In this document: positions 978-63,668 of the stretch, piece by piece | How the letters are laid out: each line of letters starts with the position of its first letter | Position numbering within the stretch: position 1 is the stretch's first letter | Source: an uncultured Alphaproteobacteria bacterium | GTDB taxonomy: Bacteria; Pseudomonadota; Alphaproteobacteria; VGEJ01 | Reading direction: 5' to 3' | DNA length: 64,000 bases | NCBI GenBank assembly: GCA_913041535.1 | Contig: CAJWJK010000001.1 | Span: 248,001-312,000 of the forward strand | The notes under the pieces: model-generated | The model's database searches: none | Told to the model about the DNA's origin: nothing | The model's input: the letters and a program-made list of their open reading frames with translations, nothing else | Made by a program: the position numbers and the translations under genes

Positions 978-1616
978 GTGACTACCTTCATCACCTGCTT
1001 CGTTGGCGATTCCATCACTCTGGGGACGGGTGATGATGACTACTTGGGGTGGCCTGCCCGCATATCCACTGACGCACGCTCCTGTGGCCATTCACTAACG
1101 ATCTATAATCTTGGGGTTCGCGCAGAAACCACTGCACAAATTCGGCAGCGTTGGCGTCGGGAAACGGCTCTTCGGCTTCCTGATCATTTGCCGGGCCATT
1201 TGGTCTTCAATTTTGGCACGAATGACACCCGCATGGTTAACGATAAGGTCGAAGTTCCATTACATCAGAGCGCCTCTAATGCTAGAGCAATGATTGAAGA
1301 GGCATTGGCTTGGGGAAAGCCTACGTTATGGATAGGTCAGATTCCGGTGGATGAAACCAACCAACCCCTTGATTCGATAATGGGTATAACATTCTGGTTT
1401 TCGAACAAAAGAATTAGGCAGACAAACGAGGTGTTTAAGGATATTGCAGATGATCTTGGCGTACCGTTTCTTGATCTGTTCTCGGTGCTTCATGGTGATT
1501 CTGTGTGGGAGCGGGAACATAAGCAAGGAGATTCGGTTCATCCAACAACTGAAGGTTACGCCATCATTGCCGAGCTCATTGGGCAGTGGGATGCTTGGCG
1601 CGCGTGGTTGGCCTAA
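978..1616 (+). CDS. SGNH/GDSL-family hydrolase, complete
   Basis: A 212-residue protein with the SGNH blocks in order: GDSITLG at residues 10-16 (nucleophile Ser12), FGTNDT near residue 78 (oxyanion Asn), and DSVHPT near residue 185 (Asp/His of the catalytic machinery). No signal peptide is evident, so a cytoplasmic esterase or lysophospholipase-like role is likely. The start is GTG at 978, preceded by a purine-rich AAAGGGGG; an ATG five bases upstream is out of frame and stops at once. The gene resembles the truncated one at 1-600 and seems to be its tandem duplicate. Its last four bases overlap the end of the convergent aldolase gene. Confidence 0.87.
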   Translation: MTTFITCFVGDSITLGTGDDDYLGWPARISTDARSCGHSLTIYNLGVRAETTAQIRQRWRRETALRLPDHLPGHLVFNFGTNDTRMVNDKVEVPLHQSASNARAMIEEALAWGKPTLWIGQIPVDETNQPLDSIMGITFWFSNKRIRQTNEVFKDIADDLGVPFLDLFSVLHGDSVWEREHKQGDSVHPTTEGYAIIAELIGQWDAWRAWLA

Positions 1617-28551: not shown

Positions 28552-29496
28552 TTACGCCCGCGTTAGTAGGTGTACAGAAAATAATTGGTTTTCATCAACC
28601 CAAACGGCTGTCGGTGCAAAGGAGGCAGATTTAGCGAGCGCCTGAAACTCTTCCACGGTATATTTGTACGAATTTTCGGTATGTATGGTTTCATTAGGCT
28701 TTAAAGGAAAATGGTAATTGGATACCGTCAGCATTTGTTCACAAAGACTTACTAAATGCATTTCTATACGCCCTTTGTCCTCATTGTAAGGAGCGATGTG
28801 TTTAAACTGATCTAGCTGTGCATTACCTTTTAATTCTCTATTAATTCGATCCAATAAGTTCTTGTTGAACTTCTCTGAAATACCAGAAGCGTCATTGTAG
28901 GCTGCTTCAAGAACTGACTTATCCTTTTTTAAATCAACTCCAATTATGGCGGCACCGCCGTGACCAACTACATTATGCATGCTGCGGAGTAGTACCTCAG
29001 CATCATCGGGTTCAAAATTACCAATAGTCGAACCAGGAAAAAAGGCACATAGCCTTTTTCCAGCTGATGCCCATAAAGGTAGATCAAATGAGCTTGTGAA
29101 GTCTCCAACGATTGGGTGTACAGTGAGGTCGCTATACTCGACACCAAGCGTATCTGATGCTTGAAGAAGTTGTTCGTCCGCAACGTCTATTGCAATAAGT
29201 GCTTGAGGTTTATCTAAACTGTCCAGCAAGGTTCGTACTTTTGACATGGCTCCCGAACCGTACTCGATAAGTATTACCTCGGGCCCAAGGTATTCCGAAA
29301 TTTCTACAGCTGCAGTTTCCAGTATGCTAGATTCGCTTCTAGTAAGGTAATACTCAGGCAGGTCGCAGATTTGTTCAAAAAGCTTCGCTCCTCTTTTGTC
29401 GTAGAACCACTTAGGCGTTAGCCTTTTAGGCCTGTTTGATAGACCTAATACAACTTCTTGAAGAAATGATGTCTTCTCTGCAGGAATAAAATTCAA
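28552..29496 (-). CDS. egtD: L-histidine N-alpha-methyltransferase (ergothioneine synthesis)
   Basis: A 314-residue SAM-dependent methyltransferase that trimethylates histidine to hercynine. Family marks are KWFYDKRGAKLFEQICDLPE near residues 24-43, the SAM-binding IEYGSGAMSK near residue 78, and FFPGSTIGNFEP near residue 150. The start is TTG at 29496: conserved residues begin directly after it, GGGGG lies six bases upstream, and no ATG is available. It follows egtB by 38 bases, making an egtB-egtD operon. Confidence 0.93.
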   Translation of the reverse strand: MNFIPAEKTSFLQEVVLGLSNRPKRLTPKWFYDKRGAKLFEQICDLPEYYLTRSESSILETAAVEISEYLGPEVILIEYGSGAMSKVRTLLDSLDKPQALIAIDVADEQLLQASDTLGVEYSDLTVHPIVGDFTSSFDLPLWASAGKRLCAFFPGSTIGNFEPDDAEVLLRSMHNVVGHGGAAIIGVDLKKDKSVLEAAYNDASGISEKFNKNLLDRINRELKGNAQLDQFKHIAPYNEDKGRIEMHLVSLCEQMLTVSNYHFPLKPNETIHTENSYKYTVEEFQALAKSASFAPTAVWVDENQLFSVHLLTRA

Positions 29497-29534
29497 TTTT
29501 GGCCCCCTGTTTCTTTCCCACCTGAAGATAGTGA

Positions 29535-30830
29535 TTAGCCATTAGGTATAGAATCGGCAAGTCGAACACCACTAAATTGCCAACGATTCTGGGGATAGAA
29601 AAAATTTCTATATGTCGAGCGTATATGGCCTTCCGGAGTTACACAGGATCCCCCTCTTAGGACCATCTGATTTGACATAAATTTACCATTATATTCCCCA
29701 ACCGCTCCTTGTTCCGGAGAGTAACCTGGATAAGGGCGATAGGCACTTGCGGTCCACTCCCAAACGTCACCAAAGACTTGTTGTATTCCGTCTTTATAGG
29801 AGGACTCTGGATGGTACATACCGTTTCCAGAAAAATTGCCAGATCTTTTTAAAGGTGCTGCGATGACTTCCCACTCTTCTTCAGTAGGCAAACGTTTTCC
29901 GGCCCAACGAGCGTACGCGTCGGCCTCGAAAAAACTGATATGGCAGACAGATGAATGTGGATCGAGGGGGTAAAGACCTGAAAGCGTGAAGGCATTCCAA
30001 TGTCTTCCATCGCTTGATTCCCAGTATAAGGGCGCTTGCCAATCGTTTTTCTGACATGCTGCCCAGCCATCAGAAAGCCATAGTTCTGGTCGCTTGTAAC
30101 CACCGGCGAGTATGAACTCCAAAAATTCTTTGTTAGTTACGGGTCGGGTGGCGAGTTGGAAAGGTTCAAGCCACACGTTATGGCGCGGCTTTTCACAGTC
30201 AAACGCAAAGCTATTGCCCGAATGCCCTATTTCTTGGAGCCCGCCTTCATCCGTTACCCAGTCCAGCTTGGAGGCATTCTTGCTGCTACATAGCTCATAT
30301 TCGTGGTATTGAGGTTTTAGGGGATTGCACGAAAAAACATGTTTGATATCTGTTAGAAGTAGTTCCTGATGTTGCTGTTCGTGATGGATTCCAAGTTCAA
30401 TAAGGTCAAGAGCTTGTGGAAGATTAAGGCTCTGGGTCTTCAGAAACTTCTTTAACGCATCCTCAACATGTTGCCGATATCTATACACGTCACTAAGTGA
30501 TGGTCGAGATAGAAGTCCGCGCTTCGAACGTTCGTGTCGGGGGCCCATTTGTTCGTAGTAGGAGTTGAATAAATATCCGTAATCTTCGTTAAACGCCGTA
30601 TAGTCAAACACAAGGGGTTTTAAGACAAATGTTTCAAAGAACCAAGTGGTATGCGCTAAGTGCCATTTAGTGGGGCTTGCATCAGACATTGACTGAATGC
30701 ATTGATCTTCCGCACTGAGAGGTTTTGAAAGTTCGTTGGTGATATTTCGAACTGCCCACAGATGATTGGAGATTGTTTCCATTCTTTCGCAAGAGTTTCG
30801 TGTTGACTGAATTGAATTATCACTCTTCAT
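29535..30830 (-). CDS. egtB: Ergothioneine synthase EgtB (hercynine sulfoxide synthase)
   Basis: A 431-residue non-haem iron enzyme that joins hercynine and a thiol (gamma-glutamylcysteine or cysteine) with O2. The N-terminal DinB-like domain has WHLAHTTWFFE near residue 55 and the iron-binding HEQQHQE (HxxxHxE) near residue 133. The C-terminal FGE-sulfatase domain shows RLPTEEEWE and FGDVWEWTASAYRPYPG. ATG 30830 is chosen; the open frame runs further up but into the tRNA-Ser gene. Together with egtD it makes an ergothioneine precursor; no egtC or egtE is present nearby. Confidence 0.92.
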   Translation of the reverse strand: MKSDNSIQSTRNSCERMETISNHLWAVRNITNELSKPLSAEDQCIQSMSDASPTKWHLAHTTWFFETFVLKPLVFDYTAFNEDYGYLFNSYYEQMGPRHERSKRGLLSRPSLSDVYRYRQHVEDALKKFLKTQSLNLPQALDLIELGIHHEQQHQELLLTDIKHVFSCNPLKPQYHEYELCSSKNASKLDWVTDEGGLQEIGHSGNSFAFDCEKPRHNVWLEPFQLATRPVTNKEFLEFILAGGYKRPELWLSDGWAACQKNDWQAPLYWESSDGRHWNAFTLSGLYPLDPHSSVCHISFFEADAYARWAGKRLPTEEEWEVIAAPLKRSGNFSGNGMYHPESSYKDGIQQVFGDVWEWTASAYRPYPGYSPEQGAVGEYNGKFMSNQMVLRGGSCVTPEGHIRSTYRNFFYPQNRWQFSGVRLADSIPNG

Positions 30831-30882
30831 TGTTTCGATACCTGGTGGCAGATGGTGGTCATCGGCTAGTTGATCTCCAAAT

Positions 30883-30973
30883 TGGCGGAGGGAGTGGGAT
30901 TCGAACCCACGGGACGCTTGCGGCGCCCACACGCTTTCCAAGCGTGCGCCTTAAGCCACTCGGCCATCCCTCC
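30883..30973 (-). tRNA. tRNA-Ser (anticodon GGA)
   Basis: A 91-base class II tRNA on the minus strand. Acceptor GGAGGGA pairs with TCCCTCC, the anticodon stem CACGC/GCGTG frames the loop TTGGAAA giving anticodon GGA, and a long variable arm and GTGGG-TTCGAAT-CCCAC T arm follow. CCA is encoded at 30883-30885. It reads UCC and UCU. Its 3' end points toward egtB and mirrors the 3' end of tRNA-Ser(CGA) at 27738. Confidence 0.96.
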
Positions 30974-49109: not shown

Positions 49110-50351
49110 GTGCCTTTTGGACTAATTAAACATGGATTAGCAAAGACATACCCATTTCGGCGTGACATTCCAGCGCCACATGAACTTAAGGATTCATATG
49201 ATGTCGTTATTATTGGCGGTGGCGGGCACGGTCTTGCGACGGCATATTATCTTGCCCAGAAGTTCGGGATAGACAATGTCGCAGTCCTTGAGAAGGGTTA
49301 TTTAGGGGGAGGTAATACTGGCCGAAATACGGCTATTATTCGCTCGAATTATCTGACTACCGAAGGTGTCCGATTTTATGATGAGTCGGTTCGTCTGTAC
49401 CGAGAGCTAAGCAATGAACTCGATTTTAATATCCTTTATTCGGAGCGTGGGCACCTAACTTTAGCACACACAGATTCAGCACTGCGAAGCATGCGTTGGC
49501 GTGCTGAGGTTAACAAGCATCTGGGAGTGGAATCTGAATTGGTTTTTCCGGATGATATCGCCAAATTGTGTTCCTGTCTTAATCTTTCTGACGATGTCCG
49601 ATACCCCATTCTTGGGGCACTTTACCATGCACCGGGTGCGATTGCTCGACACGACGCTGTAGCTTGGGGGTATGCCGCTGGAGCTTCGCGTCACGGAGTG
49701 GAACTTCATCAAGAGACAGAAGTTCTATCAATGGACATTTCAGACAATGCAGTGACAGGCATTGTTACCAATCGCGGGCGAATTAAGTGCGGGTATATTG
49801 TTCAGGCTGTCGCGGGCTTCAGTTCCTTACTTTCTAAGATGGCAGGGTTTCAGCTTCCAATAAGAACAATTCCATTGCAGGCATGCGTCTCTCAGCCGCT
49901 CAAACCTATTCTTGACCCGATCGTGGTTTCGGGCAGTCTTCACGTATATGTATCCCAAAGTGACCGTGGCGAATTTGTGATGGGAGGGTCCACTGACCCA
50001 TACCCACTTTATTCAACTCGTTCAAGCCTGGAGTTTATGGAAGGACTGATGGCGCACATTCTGGAATTGTTTCCTTTTCTGTCCGAAACAAAGGTTTTAA
50101 GGCAATGGGCTGGCATGGCAGATATGACGCCGGACTTTGCACCCATAATGGGGCTGAGTCCGGTTAGCAATTACTACATAGATGCGGGTTGGGGGACGTG
50201 GGGATTCAAGGCAACTCCCGTGTGTGGTTTGAGGATGGCAGAGTTGGTAGCGACCGGCATAGTTCCTGATGTATTGCGTCCTTTTGCCCTTGGTAGGTTT
50301 TCCGCGTTTGACCTCGTTGGAGAGAAGGGTGCGGCATCAGTTGGGCATTAA
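49110..50351 (+). CDS. mgdA: N-methylglutamate dehydrogenase, FAD subunit (sarcosine oxidase beta-like)
   Basis: A 413-residue FAD-dependent amine oxidoreductase of the DadA/SoxB group. The Rossmann motif VVIIGGGGHGLATAYYLA spans residues 32-49 and GGGNTGRNTAIIRSNY near residues 66-81 is typical of SoxB proteins; H181 in ARHDAVAW may hold a covalent FMN by homology with sarcosine oxidase. GTG 49110 has GAGG about nine bases ahead. By itself it would be called sarcosine oxidase beta; the downstream mgs-gmaS genes make N-methylglutamate the likely substrate. First gene of a four-gene operon. Confidence 0.82.
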   Translation: MPFGLIKHGLAKTYPFRRDIPAPHELKDSYDVVIIGGGGHGLATAYYLAQKFGIDNVAVLEKGYLGGGNTGRNTAIIRSNYLTTEGVRFYDESVRLYRELSNELDFNILYSERGHLTLAHTDSALRSMRWRAEVNKHLGVESELVFPDDIAKLCSCLNLSDDVRYPILGALYHAPGAIARHDAVAWGYAAGASRHGVELHQETEVLSMDISDNAVTGIVTNRGRIKCGYIVQAVAGFSSLLSKMAGFQLPIRTIPLQACVSQPLKPILDPIVVSGSLHVYVSQSDRGEFVMGGSTDPYPLYSTRSSLEFMEGLMAHILELFPFLSETKVLRQWAGMADMTPDFAPIMGLSPVSNYYIDAGWGTWGFKATPVCGLRMAELVATGIVPDVLRPFALGRFSAFDLVGEKGAASVGH

Positions 50352-50367
50352 GTAAGAGATATAGACG

Positions 50368-50649
50368 ATGAAGATTATGAATTGCCCTCTTAATGGGCCG
50401 AGAAATATTTCAGAGTTTATCTTTGGAGGTGAGGTAATAAATGAACCGGATCCTACTGCTTGTTCCGATGAAGATTGGGCCAATTATGTATTTATTGAAA
50501 ATAATACGGCTGGCGTTGTACAGGAATGGTGGTTCCATGTAGCAACGGCTTTCTGGTTTATAGCAGAACGTGACACACGAACTGACGAAATTATTTGTAC
50601 CTATTCTCCAAAACGGGTTCATGATAAACAGGAAGAGAGGGGTGTCTGA
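50368..50649 (+). CDS. mgdB: N-methylglutamate dehydrogenase, delta-type small subunit
   Basis: A 93-residue protein homologous to sarcosine oxidase delta. In sarcosine oxidase this subunit binds zinc with Cys6, Cys9, His59 and Cys63. Here Cys6 and a His at 57 remain, but the second Cys is Asn9 (CPLNGPRN) and the last Cys position is Ala61 (HVATAFWF), so the zinc site is incomplete. SDEDWANYVF and ERDTRTDEI are otherwise typical. It lies 16 bases after mgdA and two before mgdC. The change probably marks the N-methylglutamate rather than the sarcosine branch. Confidence 0.8.
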   Translation: MKIMNCPLNGPRNISEFIFGGEVINEPDPTACSDEDWANYVFIENNTAGVVQEWWFHVATAFWFIAERDTRTDEIICTYSPKRVHDKQEERGV

Positions 50650-50651
50650 CC

Positions 50652-53552
50652 GTGACCGGGGTTAATCGTTTGGATGCGCCCGTTGGTCTTTTGATAGATC
50701 GGACTCAGCAAATTAATTTTCGATTTGAGGGTCAAGACTACCAGGGGTTTAAAGGTGACAGCATTGCTAGTGCTTTGTGCGCGAATGATCGTTGGGTGAT
50801 CTCGCGATCATTTAAGTACCATCGGCCACGCGGTGTTCTAACAATGGCGGGTTATGATAGTAACACGCTTGTCCAATTGGATCATGAGCCTAATGTTCAT
50901 GCGGACAAGATGATGCTCAGTGAAGGGTTGAATGTCTTAGGGCAGAACTACAGTGGTAGTCTTGACCAGGATCGGCGATCTTGGCTCGGTCATCTTAGTG
51001 CGTTCTTACCAGTAGGTTTTTACTACAAAGCTTTTTATAAGCCGCGGGGTGCGTGGCGTCTTTGGTCATCTCTTATACGGAACTATGCGGGGCTTGGAAA
51101 GGTATCGCTGGCTACTACACAGGAATACAGCGACAAATCATATGCATTCTGTGATGTTGCTGTAATAGGAGGTGGCTGTGCCGGCTTGAGGGCAGCGATC
51201 CAGGCGGCGAATCAGGGCGCAGAGGTCACTTTGATCGATGAGAACACTGCGCTGGGGGGAGCATTATGTTACGCGCGTACTAACTCTGCCGAGTCGGAGA
51301 GCAAAGAGATACGACAAACTCTTCTGGCAAAGGTTGCTGAGCAAGAGAATATTTTGGTTCTAACGAATGCAGTAGCCAACGGGATTTATTCTGACAACTG
51401 GGTTGCCGTAATTCATGGTCGCCGTCTTGTAAAATTAAGGGCAAAGGCAATTGTCGTTGCAACTGGTGCGATGGAACAGCCTGCAGTCTTTCGGAACAAC
51501 GATTTGCCTGGTGTAATGATGGGGAGTGCAGCGCAGCGTCTTATCCGACTTTATGGCGTACGTCCCGGCCGCAGTGCTGTCGTATTTACTTCGAATAATT
51601 TTGGTTATGGCGTTGCTTTAGATTTGCTGGAGTGTGGAACAACAGTTGAAGCTGTGGTTGATACAAGAGAAAATCCAACTAATTCACTGACTCCACTACT
51701 TAAGGAATATGATGTAAAACTTGTTACGGGTGCCAACGTTATAGCAGGAATTTCTACACCCAAGGGTGATCACGTTATGGGTGTTGAAGTGGTGGCGCAA
51801 AACAGGCCTCTAACTGAGGCTTTTCGGATAAGTTGCGATCTTTTATGCGTTAGCACTGGATTTGTTCCATCTTCGCAGCTTCTTAGTCACGTAGGGGCTA
51901 ATGTAGCTTATGATCGAAGTCTTGCAACATTTGCTGTTTCAGATATTCCGTCGGGTATTTTTGCTGCGGGCTCCGTACTTAATCGTCATAACCTGCGCAC
52001 AGTAGGGGACGATGGAACTTACGCTGGTTCAGCGGCAGCTACTTTTGCTGGGTACAAGGCCGCTGGGAATATTCAGCCGCCGGATCCACCGGACGCTGCG
52101 GAATACAATCACCGATCTCCTATTTTTGAGCATCCCAGCGGTAGAGAGTTTGTTGATTTTGACGAAGATCTTGAAGTGCATGATTTGCGCGATGCAGTCT
52201 CAGACGGGTACGAGCAAATAGAGTTATTGAAACGTTACTCTACTTTGGGCATGGGGCCTTCTCAGGGCCGACATTCATCTCTTCCTGGTGTGTTGATCGC
52301 TTCAGAATCTACTGGTCGCGATCCATCGATACTGGGGCGTACAACTGTTCGTCCACCATACACCGGGGTAAAATTTGGAACCTTAGCTGGGCGTAGCTTT
52401 GAGCCAGTGCGACTTTCTCCAATGCACTATCGGCATCTCGAAGCGGGAGCCAAGATGATGCCTGCAGGCCTATGGATGCGTCCTGCATACTATGGGTCAG
52501 GTAATAGAGATTCAATCATTAGAGAAGAAGCATTGAGTGTGCGAAATGGTGTGGGTTTGATCGATGTTTCAACTCTAGGGGGCCTAGAGATTAGAGGGCC
52601 CGATTCAGTTGAATTTCTTAATCGCATGTATACGTTCTCTTACGCCAAGCAGCAAGTGGGCCGATCGCGATATGTTCTGATGACCGATCGTTCCGGTGTT
52701 ATTGTGGATGATGGTGTTGCTTGCCGACTTAGTGATAATCACTTCTACGTAACTGCTACAACTTCGGGAGTGCAAGGCGTTTATCAGGAGATGCTTTGGT
52801 ATAATGCGCAATGGCAGCTTTCGGTGGATGTAACGAACGTAACTGCTGCGTGGTGTGGCGTTAATATAGCTGGTCCACTATCTCGAGATGTTATTAAAGC
52901 GCTTACCAACGTAGATGTGTCTTCCAGTTCATTTCCGTACATGGCCGTTAGGGAAGGTTTTATAGCCGACATACCGGCGCGTTTCATGCGCGTGGGGTTT
53001 GTTGGAGAACTAGGATTCGAAATTCATGTTCCATCGACTTATGGAGAGGCGTTGTGGGATGTGCTCATGGATGCGGGAAAAGCCATTGGCATAACACCGT
53101 TTGGTGTGGAGGCCCAGAGACTGCTGCGGCTAGAGAAAGGTCATATTATCATAGGTCAAGATACAGACGGTCTTACACACCCTTATGAGGCAGATATGGC
53201 CTGGGCGATTTCACGCAAAAAGCCGTATTTTGTAGGGTCACGATCCATAGAGATCCAGGCTAAACGAAGTACTGCGCGAAAGCTTGTAGGTTTCGTCATG
53301 CCAGATGCTGACAAAGATTCGGTTCCTGAAGAATGTCAGTTGGTTGTGCGAGATGGAGATATCTCTGGGCGAGTGACGTCAGCAGCTTTTTCTCCAATAT
53401 TGGAGAAGGTGATAGGCCTCGCTTATGTAGAGTTCGATCAAGCTAAGGTTGAAAATACTTTCACTATCAAGTTTGCGGATGGCCGATTTGGTATTGCGCA
53501 TGTAACGGCGTTACCCTTTTTCGACCCTGAGGGGAAGAGGCAGGAGGTTTAG
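50652..53552 (+). CDS. mgdC: N-methylglutamate dehydrogenase, alpha-type large subunit
   Basis: A 966-residue protein. It begins with a SoxA-type 2Fe-2S-ferredoxin-like domain (residues ~15-100, GDSIASALCAN and SFKYHRPRG), then an NAD/FAD-binding region with VAVIGGGCAGLRAA near residue 170 and GAMEQPAVFRN near residue 275, and a C-terminal GcvT-like folate-binding domain (residues ~590-960). In the sarcosine oxidase family the oxidised methyl group is captured by tetrahydrofolate at this domain, giving 5,10-methylene-THF. GTG 50652 lies two bases after mgdB. Normal family length. Confidence 0.84.
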   Translation: MTGVNRLDAPVGLLIDRTQQINFRFEGQDYQGFKGDSIASALCANDRWVISRSFKYHRPRGVLTMAGYDSNTLVQLDHEPNVHADKMMLSEGLNVLGQNYSGSLDQDRRSWLGHLSAFLPVGFYYKAFYKPRGAWRLWSSLIRNYAGLGKVSLATTQEYSDKSYAFCDVAVIGGGCAGLRAAIQAANQGAEVTLIDENTALGGALCYARTNSAESESKEIRQTLLAKVAEQENILVLTNAVANGIYSDNWVAVIHGRRLVKLRAKAIVVATGAMEQPAVFRNNDLPGVMMGSAAQRLIRLYGVRPGRSAVVFTSNNFGYGVALDLLECGTTVEAVVDTRENPTNSLTPLLKEYDVKLVTGANVIAGISTPKGDHVMGVEVVAQNRPLTEAFRISCDLLCVSTGFVPSSQLLSHVGANVAYDRSLATFAVSDIPSGIFAAGSVLNRHNLRTVGDDGTYAGSAAATFAGYKAAGNIQPPDPPDAAEYNHRSPIFEHPSGREFVDFDEDLEVHDLRDAVSDGYEQIELLKRYSTLGMGPSQGRHSSLPGVLIASESTGRDPSILGRTTVRPPYTGVKFGTLAGRSFEPVRLSPMHYRHLEAGAKMMPAGLWMRPAYYGSGNRDSIIREEALSVRNGVGLIDVSTLGGLEIRGPDSVEFLNRMYTFSYAKQQVGRSRYVLMTDRSGVIVDDGVACRLSDNHFYVTATTSGVQGVYQEMLWYNAQWQLSVDVTNVTAAWCGVNIAGPLSRDVIKALTNVDVSSSSFPYMAVREGFIADIPARFMRVGFVGELGFEIHVPSTYGEALWDVLMDAGKAIGITPFGVEAQRLLRLEKGHIIIGQDTDGLTHPYEADMAWAISRKKPYFVGSRSIEIQAKRSTARKLVGFVMPDADKDSVPEECQLVVRDGDISGRVTSAAFSPILEKVIGLAYVEFDQAKVENTFTIKFADGRFGIAHVTALPFFDPEGKRQEV

Positions 53553-53553
53553 G

Positions 53554-54255
53554 ATGACCGACTTAGACCCTGCAATGCACATTCGTCGAAGCCCCATTTA
53601 CAGAAAACTGTTGGAAATTGGAGCTTGCTTTGTTGAGACTGAGTCAGGTGTTGTAGCCACACGTACGTCTGAGACAGCTACGATAGAGGCTGAGCAGGCA
53701 AGACACCTTGGCTTGAGCGACCTTACCTTGTGCCCACGTGCGGGGTATAAAGGTTGGGCGGCAATCGATTGGGCTCGGGAACTTGGTATAATAATTGGTG
53801 AGCAGAATAATCGAACATATTCGCAATCGGACAGTACGCGCGTTGTGCGTTTATCAGACAACGAGTTTCTGATTCCAGGGGAGCTTTCTGGGTCTTCACC
53901 AGCAATTGATATGCTGTCTTCTGCTCGTCGACTGGAGGGTGTGTATTCGGTTCCGAGGGCCGATAATAACTGTCGTTTTGTAATCTGTGGAAATCAAACA
54001 CCAGCAATGGTTGCTAAGCTTTGCGGTGTGGATTTAAGAGTACATCGATTCCATGAGGGGAATGTTGCCCAGACATCAGTCGCGCGCCTAAACGCGATTA
54101 TTATTCGTAGTGACTTTCGTGATGTGCCAGCTTACGAGTTGATAGCTGACATTGCATCAGCAGGTTATATGTGGAATTGCTTGATGGACGCAATGTCAGA
54201 ATTTGGGGGCTGTATTGTTGGAACGTCCGCCCTCTGTGTGTTGAAGGGTACCTGA
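53554..54255 (+). CDS. mgdD: N-methylglutamate dehydrogenase, gamma-type subunit
   Basis: A 233-residue sarcosine oxidase gamma-like protein with a folate-binding aminomethyltransferase fold. The sequence carries GWAAIDWARELG near residue 69 and the typical QTSVARLNAIIIRSD near residue 172. AGGAGG precedes ATG 53554, one base after the mgdC stop. Last gene of the mgdABCD operon; a rho-independent terminator follows at 54407. Confidence 0.82.
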   Translation: MTDLDPAMHIRRSPIYRKLLEIGACFVETESGVVATRTSETATIEAEQARHLGLSDLTLCPRAGYKGWAAIDWARELGIIIGEQNNRTYSQSDSTRVVRLSDNEFLIPGELSGSSPAIDMLSSARRLEGVYSVPRADNNCRFVICGNQTPAMVAKLCGVDLRVHRFHEGNVAQTSVARLNAIIIRSDFRDVPAYELIADIASAGYMWNCLMDAMSEFGGCIVGTSALCVLKGT

Positions 54256-54471: not shown

Positions 54472-55764
54472 CTATTCAGCTGCCACTGACCTCCGCCGCT
54501 GCGCAAGCTTACGAGCGTCCGGTGCCCGATGCATCTCTCCATTTTTCATTACCATCAATATCTTATCGATATCCTGCAATATGCTGACGTCCTTTATCGG
54601 GTCGCCATCGATCATGAGGATATCTGCCAGGTACCCTGCCTTAATCTGGCCGAGCTCGTCGCCCATACCCATCAGTTGGCCACCATACATAGTTCCAGCC
54701 CGTAGCGTATCGGCTACAGGTATGCCATAAAAATCACGGAATAGTTCGTAATCGCGCGAGTTCTGTCCGTGGGGTGTCCACGCAAATCCCCAGTCGCCGC
54801 CAGGCAATGTCTTTATGCCGCGGCGATGAATTTCCTTAATTGTTTTTTTGCTGATTGCCATTTTTCGCGGCAAATTCATGTATTCTACAACGTCAGGGGT
54901 GAATCCCCATTCCTCAGATTCCGTTGCTGTGATATATGTGCTTGATGGAGTGGGGACAACAAAAATTTCTTTTTTCTTTGCCTCCAGCATATCAAGTGCT
55001 TCTTCATCAGCAAAATCACAGTGGTAAAAAACACGAACACCATGCTTGAGTCCAATCTTGATAGCTTCAGCGGCTCGTGCGTGCGCTACTACTTCCTTGC
55101 CACGACTGTGAGCTACCGCGCACGCCTCGCGGACTTCGTCTTCAAAAGTTGTTAGCATTTCTGCACGGGCGTGAGGTGTGCCAAACTCATCGCCTGAAAT
55201 TGTCAACTTAATATGGTCTACACCTTCTCGAATCATCTCGCGACATCTACGGCGCATCTCAATCGGACCGTCAACAAATATTGTAACTGAGTCATGGTAC
55301 ATATGCATTTGGCGGGCATCGGTAAAATCTCCAGTTACCGCCATTATAGGTGAACTTGCTAGCAATCGCGGACCAGGTATGCGACCTGCCTCGATCTCAT
55401 TTCGGATAACGACATCTACCCTTGGTTTCGAGGAAAAACCAGAATAGACGCTGGTATATCCATAATCGAGAACGGTCTTCGCATTGTGCATCGTTCCGTA
55501 AATCATTTCCTCGACAGGAGTATCTCCGGGGTGCGTTAATGTCGTAGCACCCATGAGACTTAGATGAGCATGTGCGTCCGTAAGCCCTGGCATAATAGTT
55601 GCGCCACCACAGTCTATCACTTTAGCGTTTGATGCTCTTATTTTGGCTCCTTTACCATTCCAAACCTTTTTAATTCGGTTTCCCTGAAGCAGCACTTCCC
55701 CAGCGTAAGTCCGTTTCTTGGAACCATCAAAAATTCTACAATTTGAAAAGAGTGTCTGAGCCAT
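54472..55764 (-). CDS. Metal-dependent amidohydrolase (imidazolonepropionase/prolidase-like)
   Basis: A 430-residue amidohydrolase. The first metal pair is in GLTDAHAHLS near residue 64, HIKLTISGDEFG near residue 185 may hold a bridging Lys, and a later His lies in EVVAHARAAE near residue 224; GGDWGF near residue 318 probably carries the terminal metal-binding Asp. The C-terminal IKAGYLADILMIDGDP is typical of the composite domain of cytosolic amidohydrolases. The substrate is unknown. It lies on the opposite strand between mgdD and mgsA, within the methylamine cluster. Confidence 0.83.
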   Translation of the reverse strand: MAQTLFSNCRIFDGSKKRTYAGEVLLQGNRIKKVWNGKGAKIRASNAKVIDCGGATIMPGLTDAHAHLSLMGATTLTHPGDTPVEEMIYGTMHNAKTVLDYGYTSVYSGFSSKPRVDVVIRNEIEAGRIPGPRLLASSPIMAVTGDFTDARQMHMYHDSVTIFVDGPIEMRRRCREMIREGVDHIKLTISGDEFGTPHARAEMLTTFEDEVREACAVAHSRGKEVVAHARAAEAIKIGLKHGVRVFYHCDFADEEALDMLEAKKKEIFVVPTPSSTYITATESEEWGFTPDVVEYMNLPRKMAISKKTIKEIHRRGIKTLPGGDWGFAWTPHGQNSRDYELFRDFYGIPVADTLRAGTMYGGQLMGMGDELGQIKAGYLADILMIDGDPIKDVSILQDIDKILMVMKNGEMHRAPDARKLAQRRRSVAAE

Positions 55765-55886: not shown

Positions 55887-56468
55887 TTAACGCTTTGGTG
55901 GTGGTGGCACGCGAACAACCAAATTATCTTTAAGTCTCTCTGGTCTCATGTCACTTGTAACATCACCCGTTTTGCTGTCGTAGTACATTTCAGCAAAATC
56001 GAGTAACGCCTGGGCATCATCAGGGGTTAACTTGTTAAATCTCAGGAAGAATTTGCCGGGCGACCGAAACCCTACGTCGCACGGGTTCTTGCATCCTCCA
56101 AGACAATACACGATACGCATTGTAACTTTGTCACTGTAAGACCATTTTTTCAGGCGCTTTTTCATCTCATCGATTAAGAAAACCCCTTGACGTTTACCAT
56201 CGATCTCCCGTTGGGCTTCAGTCCAAACACAAGAACGACAGACATACATGGTATGCTGGAGTTTGTGCTCAGCACCGGCGCCGACTCGGCGGCTTGTTCT
56301 TTTTGACTTTGCAGTGGCACGTTGCTTTGCTGCTTGTTTGGGTTTTTGTACACGAGAGCTAGTCATCTCTTTTAACGTTCCTTTGCGGGCTACACTTTCA
56401 GTGCGCCGTCGGTTCCCGCTGTTGGATTGCGGATTGCGCTTGCTTCGCTTTGTAGTCGCACGTGCCAT
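55887..56468 (-). CDS. DUF1636-like Cys-rich protein with long basic N-terminal tail
   Basis: A 193-residue protein in two parts. Residues 1-62 are a Lys/Arg/Ser/Thr tail (about 21 of 62 are Lys or Arg, with two acidic residues), probably disordered. The rest is a small domain with Cys77, Cys80, Cys122, Cys126 and Cys130 (CRSC and CLGGCKNPC), matching the DUF1636 metal-binding or thioredoxin-like ferredoxin pattern. A 2Fe-2S cluster or zinc is plausible. GGAG precedes ATG 56468. It is 122 bases ahead of the amidohydrolase on the same strand. Function unknown. Confidence 0.75.
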   Translation of the reverse strand: MARATTKRSKRNPQSNSGNRRRTESVARKGTLKEMTSSRVQKPKQAAKQRATAKSKRTSRRVGAGAEHKLQHTMYVCRSCVWTEAQREIDGKRQGVFLIDEMKKRLKKWSYSDKVTMRIVYCLGGCKNPCDVGFRSPGKFFLRFNKLTPDDAQALLDFAEMYYDSKTGDVTSDMRPERLKDNLVVRVPPPPKR

Positions 56469-56686: not shown

Positions 56687-57628
56687 ATGTGTGGAATTGC
56701 AGGGCTTCTTTTTAAGAATTCGGATTATCACAGCGGTTTGGGCCGGTCTTTGATTGATATGCTCGATGGTTGTCAGCACCGTGGACCAGACTCAACAGGA
56801 TTTGCCCTATATGGGCCTTCTCAGAGGGGGCGCCTTGTCCTGCGGTTCCTAGTGGGAGAAGGTAGAGGCGCTGAAAAGGCCATCTCGCGCATTCGTTCGG
56901 TGTTGTCTGAACAGCAAGCACGCATAGATGAAGAGTACAATGTGGGGGGGCATTTTCGTGTTAAAGTTAGTGTTGACCACGATATTCGTGCTTTCTCTTA
57001 TGCTATGGAACAAGCAGCTCAAGTGTTTTCGATTGGTGAGAGTCTTGAAATTATAAAAGATGTGGGCGGAGCTCACGATGTTGACGCGCTTTACAGAGTC
57101 CATGAATTTGAGGGAACTCATGGCTTAGGCCATGTTCGCCTTGCCACAGAATCAGACGTCAAGCCGGAGGCCGCACATCCGTTTTGGGCGACAGGTTTCA
57201 GTGATGTAGCTATTGTACACAATGGTCAGATTACGAACTACTGGAAGATGCGCAGGCGTTTAGAGAGACGCGATTTTGAATTCCGTACCGACAATGATAG
57301 TGAGTTAATAGCAGTCTATCTTGCTGAGAAATTGTCCGAGGGGGTTTCCTTAGATGAAGCGTTAGAGACTTCTATTCAAGATCTAGATGGTACATTTTCA
57401 TTTCTTGTCTCTACCATGGATGAGATTGGATATGCCAAGGATAAATTGGCGGCGAAACCAATGATTATGTATGAGACCGAGAATCTGGTTGCTATTGCTT
57501 CTGAAGAGGTTTCGCTCAATCGTCTTTTTCCCGGGCGTGCTCTTGATACGCACGAGCCACCTCCTGGTACTTATGCCACGTGGCGCAGAGATAATCGACC
57601 GGTTGGCCCCAATCGCAGAGCTGCCTAG
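56687..57628 (+). CDS. mgsA: N-methylglutamate synthase amidotransferase subunit (GlxB-like)
   Basis: A 313-residue class II (Ntn) glutamine amidotransferase domain. The nucleophile Cys2 follows the initiator Met in MCGIAGLLF, which fixes the start at ATG 56687 rather than the frame opening six bases earlier. QHRGPDSTGFALYG near residue 30, VRLATES near residue 146 and VHNGQITNYW near residue 174 are family marks. It corresponds to the N-terminal domain of GltB. In the N-methylglutamate pathway it would release methylamine or a methylamino group from gamma-glutamylmethylamide. First gene of the synthase run. Confidence 0.84.
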   Translation: MCGIAGLLFKNSDYHSGLGRSLIDMLDGCQHRGPDSTGFALYGPSQRGRLVLRFLVGEGRGAEKAISRIRSVLSEQQARIDEEYNVGGHFRVKVSVDHDIRAFSYAMEQAAQVFSIGESLEIIKDVGGAHDVDALYRVHEFEGTHGLGHVRLATESDVKPEAAHPFWATGFSDVAIVHNGQITNYWKMRRRLERRDFEFRTDNDSELIAVYLAEKLSEGVSLDEALETSIQDLDGTFSFLVSTMDEIGYAKDKLAAKPMIMYETENLVAIASEEVSLNRLFPGRALDTHEPPPGTYATWRRDNRPVGPNRRAA

Positions 57629-57650: not shown

Positions 57651-59618
57651 ATGGCACTTATAGATCTAAAGGAAACCCCTGTTCGTGAAGCGAACGAGCT
57701 GATTCGCCAATATGGAGCTGTTGGTGAAGACGTCGAAATTGTGAACCCGGATGCGCGTCACCACTTAGGTGTTGGCCTTACGGAGGAGATATCAGTTCGT
57801 ATCAGAGGTTCTGCCGGGTATTTCTGTGCTGGCTTGACTGACGGAGCATATTTCGAAGTCGATAATAATGTTGGTTGGGGTGTTGGAGACAACATTTATC
57901 GGGGAACGGTTGTGGTGCGTGGCAATGCTGGGGCAATACCAGGAGTTGCAATACGCGGCGCTGAAATAATCATACATGGTAACATGGGCTCCCGTGCGGG
58001 TCAGGTCATGAAGTCTGGAACCTTATGTTGTGCTGGTAATGCAAACTTTATGGCTGGGTACATGATGTATGGCGGTCGCATTATCATTCTTGGGGATTCG
58101 GGTGAAAATGTAGGCGAGGACATGAGTGCTGGCGATATTTATGTAGCTGGTAAATTGCTGTCGGTTGGGTCAGATGCGGTTCAGGTCGATGTCTTGCCTT
58201 CGGAACTGGATAGTATCATGGAGTTTCTGGATAGGTATGAGCTTAAGGCAAAAAGAGGAGACTTTAAGAAGGTCAACAACGCTGGAAAGAAACTGCGATA
58301 TGGTAAGACAGAGCAACAGGTGCGAAGCATCCCTTTCCATACTTTCTCCGGTAAGTGCGATTATTGGGGGCCAAAGGTGCAGGAGGATGTATGGGTCAAA
58401 TCACAGATTGGCCGATATCGTATTCGTGGTTACGGTGGTGCTCGCACCTTACCACACCTATCCGATTTAGCATTTCGTAGTGATCTTTCTACTATTGGGG
58501 ATGATCCTCACGTTGTGTCTAAGGTGAGTATGAACACGCGAATTGGGGGCAAACATGGCGCTAACCCGCTTGACTTGTCGATGCCAGTATTGATAGCCCC
58601 AATGAGCTACGGAGCGTTAAGTCGCTCCACTAAACAGGCCATTGGCATTGCTTCAAGCCTCTCGGGTATTGCGGAGAATACGGGAGAGGGTGGCATGAGT
58701 GATGCTCAACGTGATGCCGCTGACCAACTTATTTTTCAATGTTTAGGGGGGCGTTTAGGCTGGAATATTCATGACATGAAACGAGCAAATGCTCTTGAAA
58801 TATATATTTCTCAAGGTGCGAAACCAGGCTTTGGCGGCCAACTAATGGCTAAGAAGGTGACTAAGGAGTTGGCGGAAATTCGCGGTATCCCAGAAGGGAT
58901 TGATCTCCGTTCTCCTTCTCGTCATCCTGATATTCTCGGTGCAGATGATCTTGTCATTAAGGTCCAGGAATTCCGAGAAGCTACTGGATATCGGCTTCCG
59001 ATAAGCATCAAGCTTGGCGCAGGTCGTATTCACGATGACATCAAGATTGCGCTTAAGGATGGATTTGATTTTGTCGAGCTGGATGGCATGCAGGGCTCGA
59101 CAGGCGCGGGTGGTGCAGAGGTCATGGAATATGTCGGTATACCCACAATTTCTGCTATAGTTGGTGCCCTCGATGGGCTCGCTGAGATTGACTGTGCAGG
59201 GGAAATTCAGATTGTATTAATGGGTGGGTTACGAGACGGTATCGATGCCGTAAAGGCACTATGCCTTGGTGCGGATGCTGTCGCATTTGGCACCTCAGCA
59301 ATCATTGCTGGCGGGTGTATTGCTTGTATGCAGTGTCATGTTGGACAGTGTGTAACGGGCATCGCGACTCAGGACCCTGATCATGAGAAGCGCTATAATG
59401 TTTCAGTGGAAGCACGGAACATTCATCGTTTTCTTGAGGTTGTGCGTTGGCAGATTGCAGCAATAACAAATGCACTAGGCTATAAGAATGTTACTAGTTT
59501 GTGCAGAGATGACCTTGTAGCTTTGACTCCTGAGGCAGCAGAAATCACTCGGTTGGCATATGAGCCTGGTTATCGTGATAGTGACCGGAATTTTTCTGAA
59601 AGTGTGGGCCTAGGATGA
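57651..59618 (+). CDS. mgsBC: Fused N-methylglutamate synthase: GXGXG domain plus FMN-binding synthase domain
   Basis: A 655-residue protein joining two parts that are normally separate subunits. Residues 1-225 form a GXGXG beta-helix (DNNVGWGVGDNIYRG, GAIPGVAIRG, GRIIILGDSGENVG), as in MgsB/GlxC. Residues ~235-655 form the FMN TIM barrel of glutamate synthases, with VLIAPMSYGALSR, SGTGEGG-like GEGGMSDAQRD and Cys556, Cys562, Cys567 for the 3Fe-4S cluster, as in MgsC/GlxD. The order is reversed compared with GltB. Start ATG 57651 is chosen; the frame is open upstream inside mgsA. It should transfer the methylamino group to 2-oxoglutarate. Confidence 0.85.
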   Translation: MALIDLKETPVREANELIRQYGAVGEDVEIVNPDARHHLGVGLTEEISVRIRGSAGYFCAGLTDGAYFEVDNNVGWGVGDNIYRGTVVVRGNAGAIPGVAIRGAEIIIHGNMGSRAGQVMKSGTLCCAGNANFMAGYMMYGGRIIILGDSGENVGEDMSAGDIYVAGKLLSVGSDAVQVDVLPSELDSIMEFLDRYELKAKRGDFKKVNNAGKKLRYGKTEQQVRSIPFHTFSGKCDYWGPKVQEDVWVKSQIGRYRIRGYGGARTLPHLSDLAFRSDLSTIGDDPHVVSKVSMNTRIGGKHGANPLDLSMPVLIAPMSYGALSRSTKQAIGIASSLSGIAENTGEGGMSDAQRDAADQLIFQCLGGRLGWNIHDMKRANALEIYISQGAKPGFGGQLMAKKVTKELAEIRGIPEGIDLRSPSRHPDILGADDLVIKVQEFREATGYRLPISIKLGAGRIHDDIKIALKDGFDFVELDGMQGSTGAGGAEVMEYVGIPTISAIVGALDGLAEIDCAGEIQIVLMGGLRDGIDAVKALCLGADAVAFGTSAIIAGGCIACMQCHVGQCVTGIATQDPDHEKRYNVSVEARNIHRFLEVVRWQIAAITNALGYKNVTSLCRDDLVALTPEAAEITRLAYEPGYRDSDRNFSESVGLG

Positions 59619-62128
59619 ATAAGGTCGATGGTGCTGCAGTATTGCCGCCTGATCTCAGGGACGATACTGATGATACTCACTTTGTACCAGCACCGTGTCA
59701 GATTGCCTGTCCTGTAGGTACTGACGCACCATCATACATTGCTCACATTTGGGAAGGGGACTTTAAGGCAGCATTTGAAGCCATTTATGCCACCAATCCG
59801 TTTAGCTCAATCTGCGGGAGAGTGTGTGATGCCCCGTGTGAGCCAGCCTGTCGCCGCACTTCGAGCGATGGACCAATAGCTATCCGCAATCTCAAGCGTT
59901 TTGTCATGGATGAGCTTGGCCGCGATATGCATTTGCCGGTAGTTAAAGTTACCCGTTCACAAACCATAGCAATCGTTGGCTCGGGTCCAGCCGGCCTGAC
60001 CGCGGCGCAAGATCTGGCTGAGGCAGGATTTGAGGTGCACGTATACGAAATGACTGATCGCTTGGGTGGGATGATGGTATGGGGCATTCCGGCATTCCGA
60101 TTGCCGCCTGGTATCATACATGAAGATATCGATCGTATGCTCAAACACTGTCCTGGAATAAAGATTCACTTTAACACCGAGCTGGGTCGCGACATAACGC
60201 TTGAAGAACTCAAAGCACGTCATAATGCAGTCCTGCTAACTATAGGAGCATGGTGGGGAAAACCAATGAATATCCCTGGAGAGGACGACGAGCGGGTAGT
60301 TGATGGGGTCAGTTTTTTACGCCGAATCAATGAAGGTGCCAGGCCGAATCTTCCTGAAACAGTAGTTGTTGTAGGCGGCGGCGATGTGGCAATGGATGCG
60401 TGCCGGGTGGCTAAACGTTTGTCGGGGTGTAAGGAAGTTAAGGTAATTTACCGACGCGGCCCCGATGAAATTCCCGCGCGCCGCGATGAGTTGGAGGGTG
60501 CCCTTAAGGAGGGCATAGAATTTCTCTACTACACACAGCAAGTGTCGATAAAACCAACTTACAACGGCTTGGCGGTTGGTTGTATTCAAACTAGCTTGGG
60601 AGAGCGAGAGGATGATGGTCGGCTAGCGCCAGTTGCTCTCCCGGGAACCGAACATGACATTAATTGCGGAATGGTTATAGCTGCTGTCGGTCAAGTTGGG
60701 GCCTGTGAAGAACTTCAACGATGCGGGATGATGGCGGGTGATCGAGTGCGTGCCGAATACTCAAACATGCGTACAGATGACCATCGGGTTTTCGCTGCGG
60801 GGGATGGGGCGTTTGGGGGCTCTACGATAGTCATCGCCATGCAACATGGGCATCGCGCCGCGTATTATGTTAAAGCTTTTCTCGAAGGGCAGCAGAGTCC
60901 TATGCCCTATAGGACTCCATTTCGCACGCGTCGTGTGCCTGTCGCGCAAGATTTGATGTGGGAAAAATTAGCTCGATTTGAACATGTTTTTCACGGATTA
61001 GGTCATGATCCGATAGCTTTTCCTGAGATAGAAAGCACATATGACTACGAGACGGCTCGGCAGGAGGCGGCACGGTGTTATAGGTGTGACGCGGAGACAG
61101 GCTCCGCTGATTATGGGGTGCAGCATCGTGAAGATATTTTTGCAATGGCGCGCACTGACACCAAGGATCACGTTGGTAATCAGTTTATGCTGAAAAAGAG
61201 ACTTGGTCCCCGAGAAAATCCATTTCCAGAGGGTCGTCCAGGATGTTTAGATGATCTGGTTTTTCTACCAGCCAACCTGTCCCGTTTAGTTATTGACCCG
61301 TATCGAGAGGCATGTTCAGTAAACACTGATCTTGCAGGGAGGCTTTCTCTCCAACAATCTATTATTTCAACCGGTTTTGATGAGGTTCATGAAGTTGTGC
61401 GGCACGCAGTTTCACTCGGCCTTGAGGACCGTAACTGTCCTTATCTTGGAGTTAGTCCCATTGGGAATAGAATAGATTGGCTACAAGTTTTATCCGAAGA
61501 CAGTGACTGTCCCAGTGCCGAAGCCGCTGGATTTTTTCGGTTATTTGGGGACAACTGCCAGGAAGTATCAGCTAAACCGGCGTACGAAAATCAAATATCC
61601 GGAATTATTTTATCCTCTACCCGTGTTTTGCATGATTCAATTCCATTTGCTCTACGTGCAGGGTTTGATGCGCTCTTGCTTGATGGGAGCGGGGCATTTG
61701 GACTGCCCTGGTCTGAGATTGGGCGTGCACCGGATCTCACAATGTTGCGTGATACGGTTAATATTTTGCGGGACCTTGGCGCAGAGGAACAAATTGAGCT
61801 GATCTATTTTGGTGGTATTCGATCCGGTACCGATGTGGCCAAAATAATTGGTTTAGGCGCAAATGCTGTCGTTCTAGGAGTTCCAATAGGGCTCGCAGCG
61901 GGTGGTGAAATCATTGACAACAATACATTAGGTTTTGTCGCTGATCGTGACACTGAAGATCGTAGGCAGGCAGTGTCAAATATTTTAGACGCCACGGCTG
62001 GCGAAGCATCAATGATGGCACGTTGCACAGGGAAGACTAATTTGCATAACGTGGAACCTGAGGATTTGAGCGCATTGACTCTAGCTACTCGTGACGCCAC
62101 TGGAGTGGCGTTGGTAGGTACAGATTAG
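59615..62128 (+). CDS. GltD-like flavoprotein fused to a degenerate FMN-barrel-like domain
   Basis: An 837-residue protein. Residues ~25-115 have a GltD-type Fe-S domain (CQIACPVGTDAPSY and a CGRVCDAPCEPACRR cluster), residues ~120-480 an FAD/NADPH-binding pair (VGSGPAGLTAAQDLAEAGF near 123; VVVGGGDVAMDACR near 251), and CYRCDAE near 488. Residues ~530-837 resemble a second glutamate-synthase FMN domain: LDDLVF at its start and LIYFGGIRSGTDVAK and LGANAVVLGVP near its end, but the cluster cysteines are missing. It overlaps mgsBC by four bases and could feed NADPH electrons to the synthase. Confidence 0.8.
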   Translation: MNKVDGAAVLPPDLRDDTDDTHFVPAPCQIACPVGTDAPSYIAHIWEGDFKAAFEAIYATNPFSSICGRVCDAPCEPACRRTSSDGPIAIRNLKRFVMDELGRDMHLPVVKVTRSQTIAIVGSGPAGLTAAQDLAEAGFEVHVYEMTDRLGGMMVWGIPAFRLPPGIIHEDIDRMLKHCPGIKIHFNTELGRDITLEELKARHNAVLLTIGAWWGKPMNIPGEDDERVVDGVSFLRRINEGARPNLPETVVVVGGGDVAMDACRVAKRLSGCKEVKVIYRRGPDEIPARRDELEGALKEGIEFLYYTQQVSIKPTYNGLAVGCIQTSLGEREDDGRLAPVALPGTEHDINCGMVIAAVGQVGACEELQRCGMMAGDRVRAEYSNMRTDDHRVFAAGDGAFGGSTIVIAMQHGHRAAYYVKAFLEGQQSPMPYRTPFRTRRVPVAQDLMWEKLARFEHVFHGLGHDPIAFPEIESTYDYETARQEAARCYRCDAETGSADYGVQHREDIFAMARTDTKDHVGNQFMLKKRLGPRENPFPEGRPGCLDDLVFLPANLSRLVIDPYREACSVNTDLAGRLSLQQSIISTGFDEVHEVVRHAVSLGLEDRNCPYLGVSPIGNRIDWLQVLSEDSDCPSAEAAGFFRLFGDNCQEVSAKPAYENQISGIILSSTRVLHDSIPFALRAGFDALLLDGSGAFGLPWSEIGRAPDLTMLRDTVNILRDLGAEEQIELIYFGGIRSGTDVAKIIGLGANAVVLGVPIGLAAGGEIIDNNTLGFVADRDTEDRRQAVSNILDATAGEASMMARCTGKTNLHNVEPEDLSALTLATRDATGVALVGTD

Positions 62129-62360
62129 AAGAGGTAGCTAGGCACGCAACTCGTTCGCATATCTGATTTTGACGTTGGCACGACAGGTTGGCCGAATGTG
62201 GAATCGGTAATTGCCTCAAGTCGACACTTTCTGTCATGCCTCGTCTAGTGTGACACGTCTTGATAGTACTTCTCATTGTTGGAGCTAGCGACGTTGCACC
62301 GTACGGCAGGCAAGGTCATACTAGGTGACCATTCCCTGTTTGATCTCTACGGAGGATCGG

Positions 62361-63668
62361 ATGGCAGTAGACCTTGCCGACGTCGCGAAGCGACAAAAAA
62401 TCAAGTATTTTCTTATCAGTTTTGTAGATTTGTTTGGCGTTTTGCGCTCTAAGCTAGTACCAGCACGAGCAATTTCTGATATGCAGAAAGAAGGTGCTGG
62501 CTTTGCAGGTTTTGCCGCTTGGTTGGATATGACACCGGCACACCCTGACATGTTTGCAATCCCAGATTCGGGTAGCTTAATTCAATTGCCGTGGCAGCGT
62601 GAAGTTGGCTGGCTGGCTGGGGACCTTTGGATGGATGGTGCCCCAGTACAACAGGCACCTCGTGTCGCGCTAAAACGTCAAATAGAGTCTGCGGCAACTG
62701 CTGGGTTTAGAATGAAGAGTGGTGTGGAATGTGAATACTTCCTCATTAGCGCAGATGGTTCAGGTATCTCAGATTCTCGAGATACTCAGACAAAGCCTTG
62801 TTATGACCAGTCTGCCCTTATGCGACGTTATGATGTCATCAGTGAGATCTGCGATTCAATGATCGAGTTGGGCTGGAATCCATATCAAAACGATCACGAA
62901 GACGCCAATGGTCAGTTTGAGATGAACTGGGACTATGCGGATTGTTTGGTTACTGCTGATCGACACACATTTTTCAAATTTATGGTTAAGGCGATTGCTG
63001 AAAAACATGGGTTTAGGGCGACTTTTATGCCTAAGCCGTTTGCGAATTTGACAGGAAATGGCTGTCATGCGCACGTGTCGATGTGGAACATGTCGGGACG
63101 TCGCAATTTGTTTAATGACTCCAAGGGTGACCTTGGTCTTTCTAAGCTGGCCTACGACTTTCTAGGTGGTATTATCCACTCTGCTGACAGTTTAGCAGCT
63201 CTCTTCAATCCGAGTGTTAATAGTTATAAGAGGTTAGACGCCCCAATCACCCGTTCCGGTGCCACATGGTCTCCGAACGCTATCACCTACGGGGGAAATA
63301 ATCGTACTCATATGGTGAGGATTCCTGATAAGGGGCGTTTTGAACTTCGACTTATGGATGGATCTGCCAATCCCTATCTTCTACAGGCTGGCATATTAGC
63401 GGCTGGGCTTGATGGAATTGCCAACACTCGTGATCCGGGACGTCGGCTTGATGTTAATATGTATGAAGAAGGTCACCGATTACGGGGTGTTCGACGCTTG
63501 CCTCTGAATCTTTTGGACGCTGTAAGGTTATTTGACAAGAGTAAGGTTTTAAGAACTGCTTTTGGCGATGAGTTGGTTGGCGCATACGTAAAGCTGAAGC
63601 TTGATCAGTGGAGAGAGTACACAGGAACGCTTTCTCAGTGGGAACTCGATAACACTCTGGACTGTTAA
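62361..63668 (+). CDS. gmaS: Gamma-glutamylmethylamide synthetase (type III glutamine synthetase-like)
   Basis: A 435-residue glutamine synthetase fold enzyme that ligates methylamine to glutamate with ATP. The N-terminal [18 protein letters not shown] near residue 14 and [13 protein letters not shown] near residue 52 match GmaS/GlnT rather than GlnA; the catalytic domain has ECEYFL near residue 120, NGQFEMNW near residue 185 and [10 protein letters not shown] near residue 232. GGAGGA lies just before ATG 62361. The 232 bases ahead hold no gene and may contain its promoter. With mgs and mgd it completes the N-methylglutamate pathway. Confidence 0.86.

Follow-up and report, generated by a model that had tools for sequence, protein, structure and literature searches.

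A probable N-methylglutamate synthase locus with a GltD-type gene

The window, as we call the whole 64,000-nucleotide stretch of DNA that was analysed, carries on its forward strand a row of four genes, mgsA, mgsBC, a GltD/barrel gene and gmaS, with mgdABCD-like genes upstream. The first (56687..57628) encodes MgsA, a class II glutamine amidotransferase subunit that starts MCGIAG and matches the Pfam models GATase_6/GATase_7. The second (57651..59618) encodes a 655 aa synthase subunit in which MgsB and MgsC are fused; Pfam recognizes both its GXGXG part (4e-15) and its FMN/[3Fe-4S] part (Glu_synthase, 7e-91), and the FMN domain and Cys loop (loop at 59310-59351) are retained. The last (62325..63668) encodes a GlnT-type gamma-glutamylmethylamide synthetase, GmaS, which scores 663 bits against TIGR03105, where the cut-off is 470. 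The amidotransferase, GXGXG and FMN/[3Fe-4S] parts and gmaS are all encoded here, as expected of N-methylglutamate synthase genes. A second gmaS-like gene, 67% identical, is found elsewhere in the same genome (G000:C11:52889-54211).

The upstream block of mgdABCD-like (soxBDAG-like) N-methylglutamate dehydrogenase genes (49110..54255, forward strand) consists of open reading frames at 49110-50351, 50652-53552 and 53554-54255, with an mgdB-size frame near 50368-50649. Classical N-methylglutamate loci hold relatives of the soxB/A/G genes seen in this block. Between the mgd and mgs genes, on the opposite strand, lie an amidohydrolase-like gene (54472-55764) and a gene for a small cysteine-containing protein (55887-56468). 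Farther away in the window, neighbouring EgtD-like and EgtB-like genes (28552-30941, reverse strand) suggest ergothioneine synthesis, and two similar genes that resemble SGNH/GDSL hydrolases stand side by side (1-600 and 978-1616, forward strand).

The third gene of the row, at 59615..62128 on the forward strand, is an intact open frame for a GltD-type FAD/NADPH protein of 837 aa, so recognized by Pfam, with a degenerate FMN-domain barrel at its C-terminus. Its ATG overlaps the TGA of mgsBC (ATGA), as the original prediction had noted in describing an overlapping gene.

The GltD-type N-terminal module

The GltD-like module spans residues 26-495, with Pfam matches to Fer4_20 at 26-100 (8e-24) and to Pyr_redox_2 at 117-412 (5e-26). 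These correspond to an N-terminal iron-sulfur domain (59690..59944) and to an FAD/NAD(P)H double Rossmann module (59945..60904) that resembles GltS beta and Nfn in structure. Fer4_20 and Rossmann folds, together with conserved cluster cysteines, identify this part as a GltD-like oxidoreductase domain, and its nearest solved structures are chains of Nfn/Stn transhydrogenase, GltS beta and dihydropyrimidine dehydrogenase (DPD). Conservation was read from an alignment of 46 family sequences, in all of which eight cysteines of the module are invariant: C28, C32, C67, C71, C75 and C79 in the Fer4_20 domain, and C488 and C491 in a CYRC motif (61076..61087). By number, these would be enough for two 4Fe-4S clusters.

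Classical GltD has an N-terminal CxxC. This first CxxC is absent from the module encoded in the window, and because it is missing, the RCYRC motif, which aligns with RCLEC of 9bov_A, probably completes a 4Fe-4S cluster by supplying the missing ligands. A YRR sequence after the second GGG nucleotide motif suggests, by comparison with GltD enzymes, a preference for NADPH. Residues 496-545 form a conserved linker to the barrel.

The closest solved relatives of the module, subunits of the NfnABC/StnABC transhydrogenases (9n5u, 9bov, 8oh5), include one, 9bov, that aligns in the RCxxC region as well, but they differ in their other attached domains and partners, and bifurcation is unsupported for the window protein. 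NADPH-dependent glutamate synthase (GltB + GltD) has the same functional modules, with a GltD-type beta subunit as electron input. Unlike that enzyme, the window set is divided into a GATase, a GXGXG-FMN and a GltD-barrel protein, with an extra barrel on a GltD part that is without the N-terminal CxxC and has RCxxC at residues 487-491.

A degenerate FMN-type barrel at the C-terminus

Residues ~546-837 (61250..62125) form a degenerate FMN barrel of the MgsC/GltB type, as found by hhalign, AlphaFold and Foldseek; the barrel that had been predicted is real but begins near residue 546, not 520. In a profile-profile comparison by hhalign, it matches catalytic MgsC domains with a probability of 99.9% (E 1.3e-31), and in a second comparison, with GltB also included, it matches MgsC at 99.8% (E 8e-30). 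By itself the barrel gives weak Pfam matches to FMN_dh and Glu_synthase (PF01645), the latter above its cut-off, and these models match 49 and 43, respectively, of 52 relatives. AlphaFold models the isolated barrel at pLDDT 88.9, and its best solved matches by Foldseek are flavocytochrome b2, mandelate oxidase and hydroxyacid oxidase, with E down to 5e-12. It is an FMN-type TIM barrel, homologous to the GltS/MgsC FMN domain of PF01645, though its relation to the FMN domains of MgsC and GltB is remote. The profile comparison and the fold search rule out an unrelated C-terminal fold, the outcome that would have overturned the original prediction. A model of all 837 residues has a mean pLDDT of 85, with a pTM of 0.62 that leaves the arrangement of domains uncertain.

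Of 94 columns that are invariant in catalytic MgsC domains, the barrel keeps 20 and loses 62; among the 55 of these columns shared with the organism's own GltB, it keeps 13 and loses 35. The [3Fe-4S] loop, KPGxGG, IDLRSPSRHPD and the VKLG lysine are absent or replaced, leaving the barrel with neither the [3Fe-4S] cysteine loop nor the 2-oxoglutarate/FMN catalytic residues. Because these catalytic elements are lost, it is very likely inactive in glutamate-synthase chemistry. What is kept of the FMN site is the phosphate-type loop, GGIRSGTDVAKIIGLGANAVVLG (61811..61879, forward strand), which aligns with the MgsC loop in a GG-x3-G-x-D...G...G pattern; G733, G738, D740 and G748 occur in 100% of the family and G755 in 92%. 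The barrel had been described as cysteine-less, and while the MgsC cysteine loop is indeed gone, all 46 relatives have the two cysteines C567 and C804. C567 lies in the largely invariant segment DDLVFLPANLSRLVIDPYREAC (residues 546-567; 61250..61315), and C804 in the nearly invariant segment EASMMARCTGKTNLHNVEPED (residues 797-817; 62003-62065), both on the forward strand. Residues 554-563, within DDLVFLPANLSRLVIDPYREAC, have pLDDT <50 in the full AlphaFold model. The segment is a possible contact for a partner or cofactor, and its low-confidence part might resemble a surface that orders on binding.

Mean pairwise identity is 49% in the barrel and 65% in the FAD/NADPH part, so the barrel evolves faster. 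Its differences by codon position (349/235/1015) show purifying selection, and this bias and the conservation rule out a decaying reading frame. The barrel may retain FMN or a different phosphate ligand. That it thereby serves as a working redox or sensing site, with electrons or a signal going through it and not past it, is improbable, given that KPGxGG, the VKLG lysine and the GEGG motif are lost or changed and that the domain evolves faster than the remaining protein. Such a site would nevertheless fit the almost fully conserved phosphate-type loop and the two invariant cysteines, and in DPD a single chain does hold a GltD module and an FMN barrel that works (PMC8097209).

Pairing with fused MgsBC

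A scan of genome contigs with the barrel as query found 80 loci, mostly in metagenome-assembled genomes of marine alpha- and gammaproteobacteria. MgsBC is the gene immediately before the GltD/barrel gene in every one of the 62 loci whose upstream sequence reaches 2.1 kb or more; it is a single full-length fused frame in 61 of them, and in the other (L111) is broken into two frames. These 80 loci are unable to show a fused MgsBC without the barrel, because the barrel was the query. In a class search of 385 genomes with MgsBC as query, fused MgsBC (at least 68% identity) and the barrel occur in exactly the same 13 genomes, and no fused MgsBC was found without the barrel. All 13 have gmaS, at an identity of at least 66%. 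An mgdC-type gene is present at 52% identity or more in 11 of the 13, and the other two have only distant mgdC relatives. Among 399 genomes drawn from across the phylum, 14 others have split MgsB-MgsC pairs, and none of these 14 carries the barrel. One genome (G080) holds both a fused-type and a split-type set.

The fused set is a genuine and conserved variant of an enzyme system that is already known. The tie of the GltD/barrel gene to the synthase is strong; the function of the gene we infer. In the open-access literature we found no published description of the gene in an N-methylglutamate context, and the literature searched holds no fused-type synthase that has been characterised.

Classical and type III synthase sets

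Classical MgsABC, known from Methyloversatilis, Methylobacterium and Aminobacter aminovorans pAA01, has the same amidotransferase, GXGXG and FMN/[3Fe-4S] parts and likewise lies beside gmaS and soxBDAG-like mgd genes. It differs in that MgsB and MgsC are separate genes, in that its FMN part belongs to another clade, and in that a GltD gene is absent from the loci read. On plasmids of A. aminovorans (pAA01), Paracoccus aminovorans, Rhizobium and Ruegeria, mgsA, mgsB, mgsC and glnT/gmaS are consecutive, and neither these four annotated plasmid regions nor ~20 further split loci of types II and III showed a GltD gene near the clusters. The original prediction took the protein for an extra subunit of the classical synthase; the extra GltD gene is real, but it belongs to a separate form of the enzyme with a fused GXGXG-FMN subunit.

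A third MgsABC-like set occurs at eight loci (L160, L161, L162, L164, L165, L167, L182 and L184), with MgsC-like proteins 49-52% identical to the classical ones. In nearly all eight, a distant glutamine-synthetase-like gene (~30% to GmaS) adjoins the set.

In trees, the barrel and the fused-type, classical and type III FMN domains form four separate groups on long branches. Approximately unbiased (AU) tests reject neither a grouping of the barrel with the fused type (p 0.30) nor one with the classical type (p 0.21). The trees do not show that the barrel arose as a copy of the FMN domain in the adjacent MgsBC.

Proposed role of the GltD/barrel protein

N-methylglutamate synthase was viewed in older work as acting on glutamate and methylamine (cited in PMC5023235), and may instead act like GOGAT on gamma-glutamylmethylamide and 2-oxoglutarate; its redox cofactor is stated as unknown (PMC6237917). 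The mgsABC genes of M. extorquens yield N-methylglutamate in P. putida without a GltD/barrel gene (PMC6237917). The gene is therefore not generally required for the chemistry of the synthase, and the classical three-gene enzyme would draw on another donor, a partner encoded elsewhere or a host protein. GltD-like modules are established as donors of electrons from NAD(P)H to a partner by way of low-potential clusters (PMC8097209).

The explanation we favour, and consider reasonably probable, makes the GltD/barrel protein the subunit that oxidises NADPH and brings electrons into a self-contained, GOGAT-like N-methylglutamate synthase, with its very likely inactive barrel used for assembly or docking. 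The original prediction's reading of the C-terminus as a degenerate FMN domain, and its suggestion of a possible NADPH input, both gain support from homology, the predicted structure, the lost residues and the strict pairing of the genes. Its suggestion that the barrel acts as a docking or structural mimic is compatible with these data. We infer the following route. NADPH would reduce the FAD of the GltD module, as in NADPH-GltS (PMC8097209), and fused MgsBC would receive the electrons at its [3Fe-4S] cluster and FMN, one at a time by way of the module's two 4Fe-4S clusters. GmaS would make gamma-glutamylmethylamide, from which MgsA would free methylamine; at the MgsC site methylamine and 2-oxoglutarate would condense, the imine would be reduced by FMNH2 to N-methylglutamate, and MgdABCD would then oxidise the product. 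The barrel would pack where a second FMN-type barrel could sit, and its role is most likely assembly or docking. Counting against this explanation are the lack of GltD beside classical clusters, the N-methylglutamate made in P. putida with no such gene (so that the chemistry can draw electrons from other sources), the two of 13 genomes without a close mgdC, and the pTM of 0.62.

The set could also form a GOGAT-like synthase for a different substrate, another N-alkylamine or glutamine, with the GltD/barrel protein still as NADPH input: all parts are GltS-related, sequence cannot tell specificity, two of the 13 genomes have only distant mgdC relatives, and the related type III sets adjoin distant glutamine-synthetase-like genes. 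We regard this as unlikely, given gmaS in all 13 genomes, the mgd and gmaS genes that surround the window set, and the separate gltBD that the window's own genome has besides its mgs set. The GltD-then-barrel order is that of DPD, whose chains are among the structural matches, but it is very improbable that the protein works apart from the synthase, as an NADPH-dependent reductase with two domains in the manner of DPD that merely shares the operon, since the barrel of DPD is DHODH-like, active and followed by an 8Fe (2x[4Fe-4S]) ferredoxin domain, whereas the window barrel is of the MgsC/GltB type, has lost its active site and is C-terminal with no ferredoxin domain after it, and the pairing with fused MgsBC is strictly one-to-one.

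Under the favoured explanation, electron input to a GOGAT-like synthase, the GltD/barrel protein is a concrete candidate for the donor that reduces N-methylglutamate synthase: in a group of mostly marine and uncultured bacteria, the synthase is strictly accompanied by a module of a kind that, where characterised, exchanges electrons with NAD(P)H. A bolder reading, which we hold less likely than not, is that the fused sets represent a second architectural class of N-methylglutamate synthase that depends on NADPH and is self-sufficient: a pseudo-enzyme copy of the catalytic barrel, joined to the electron-input subunit, would occupy the position of a catalytic barrel in the complex and fix the donor beside the active site. 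Retention of a catalytic barrel as a fused pseudo-enzyme would be unusual. A named, cultured strain, Pinisolibacter aquiterrae B13, carries the fused set (locus L115), and the donor role can therefore be approached in a cultured organism.
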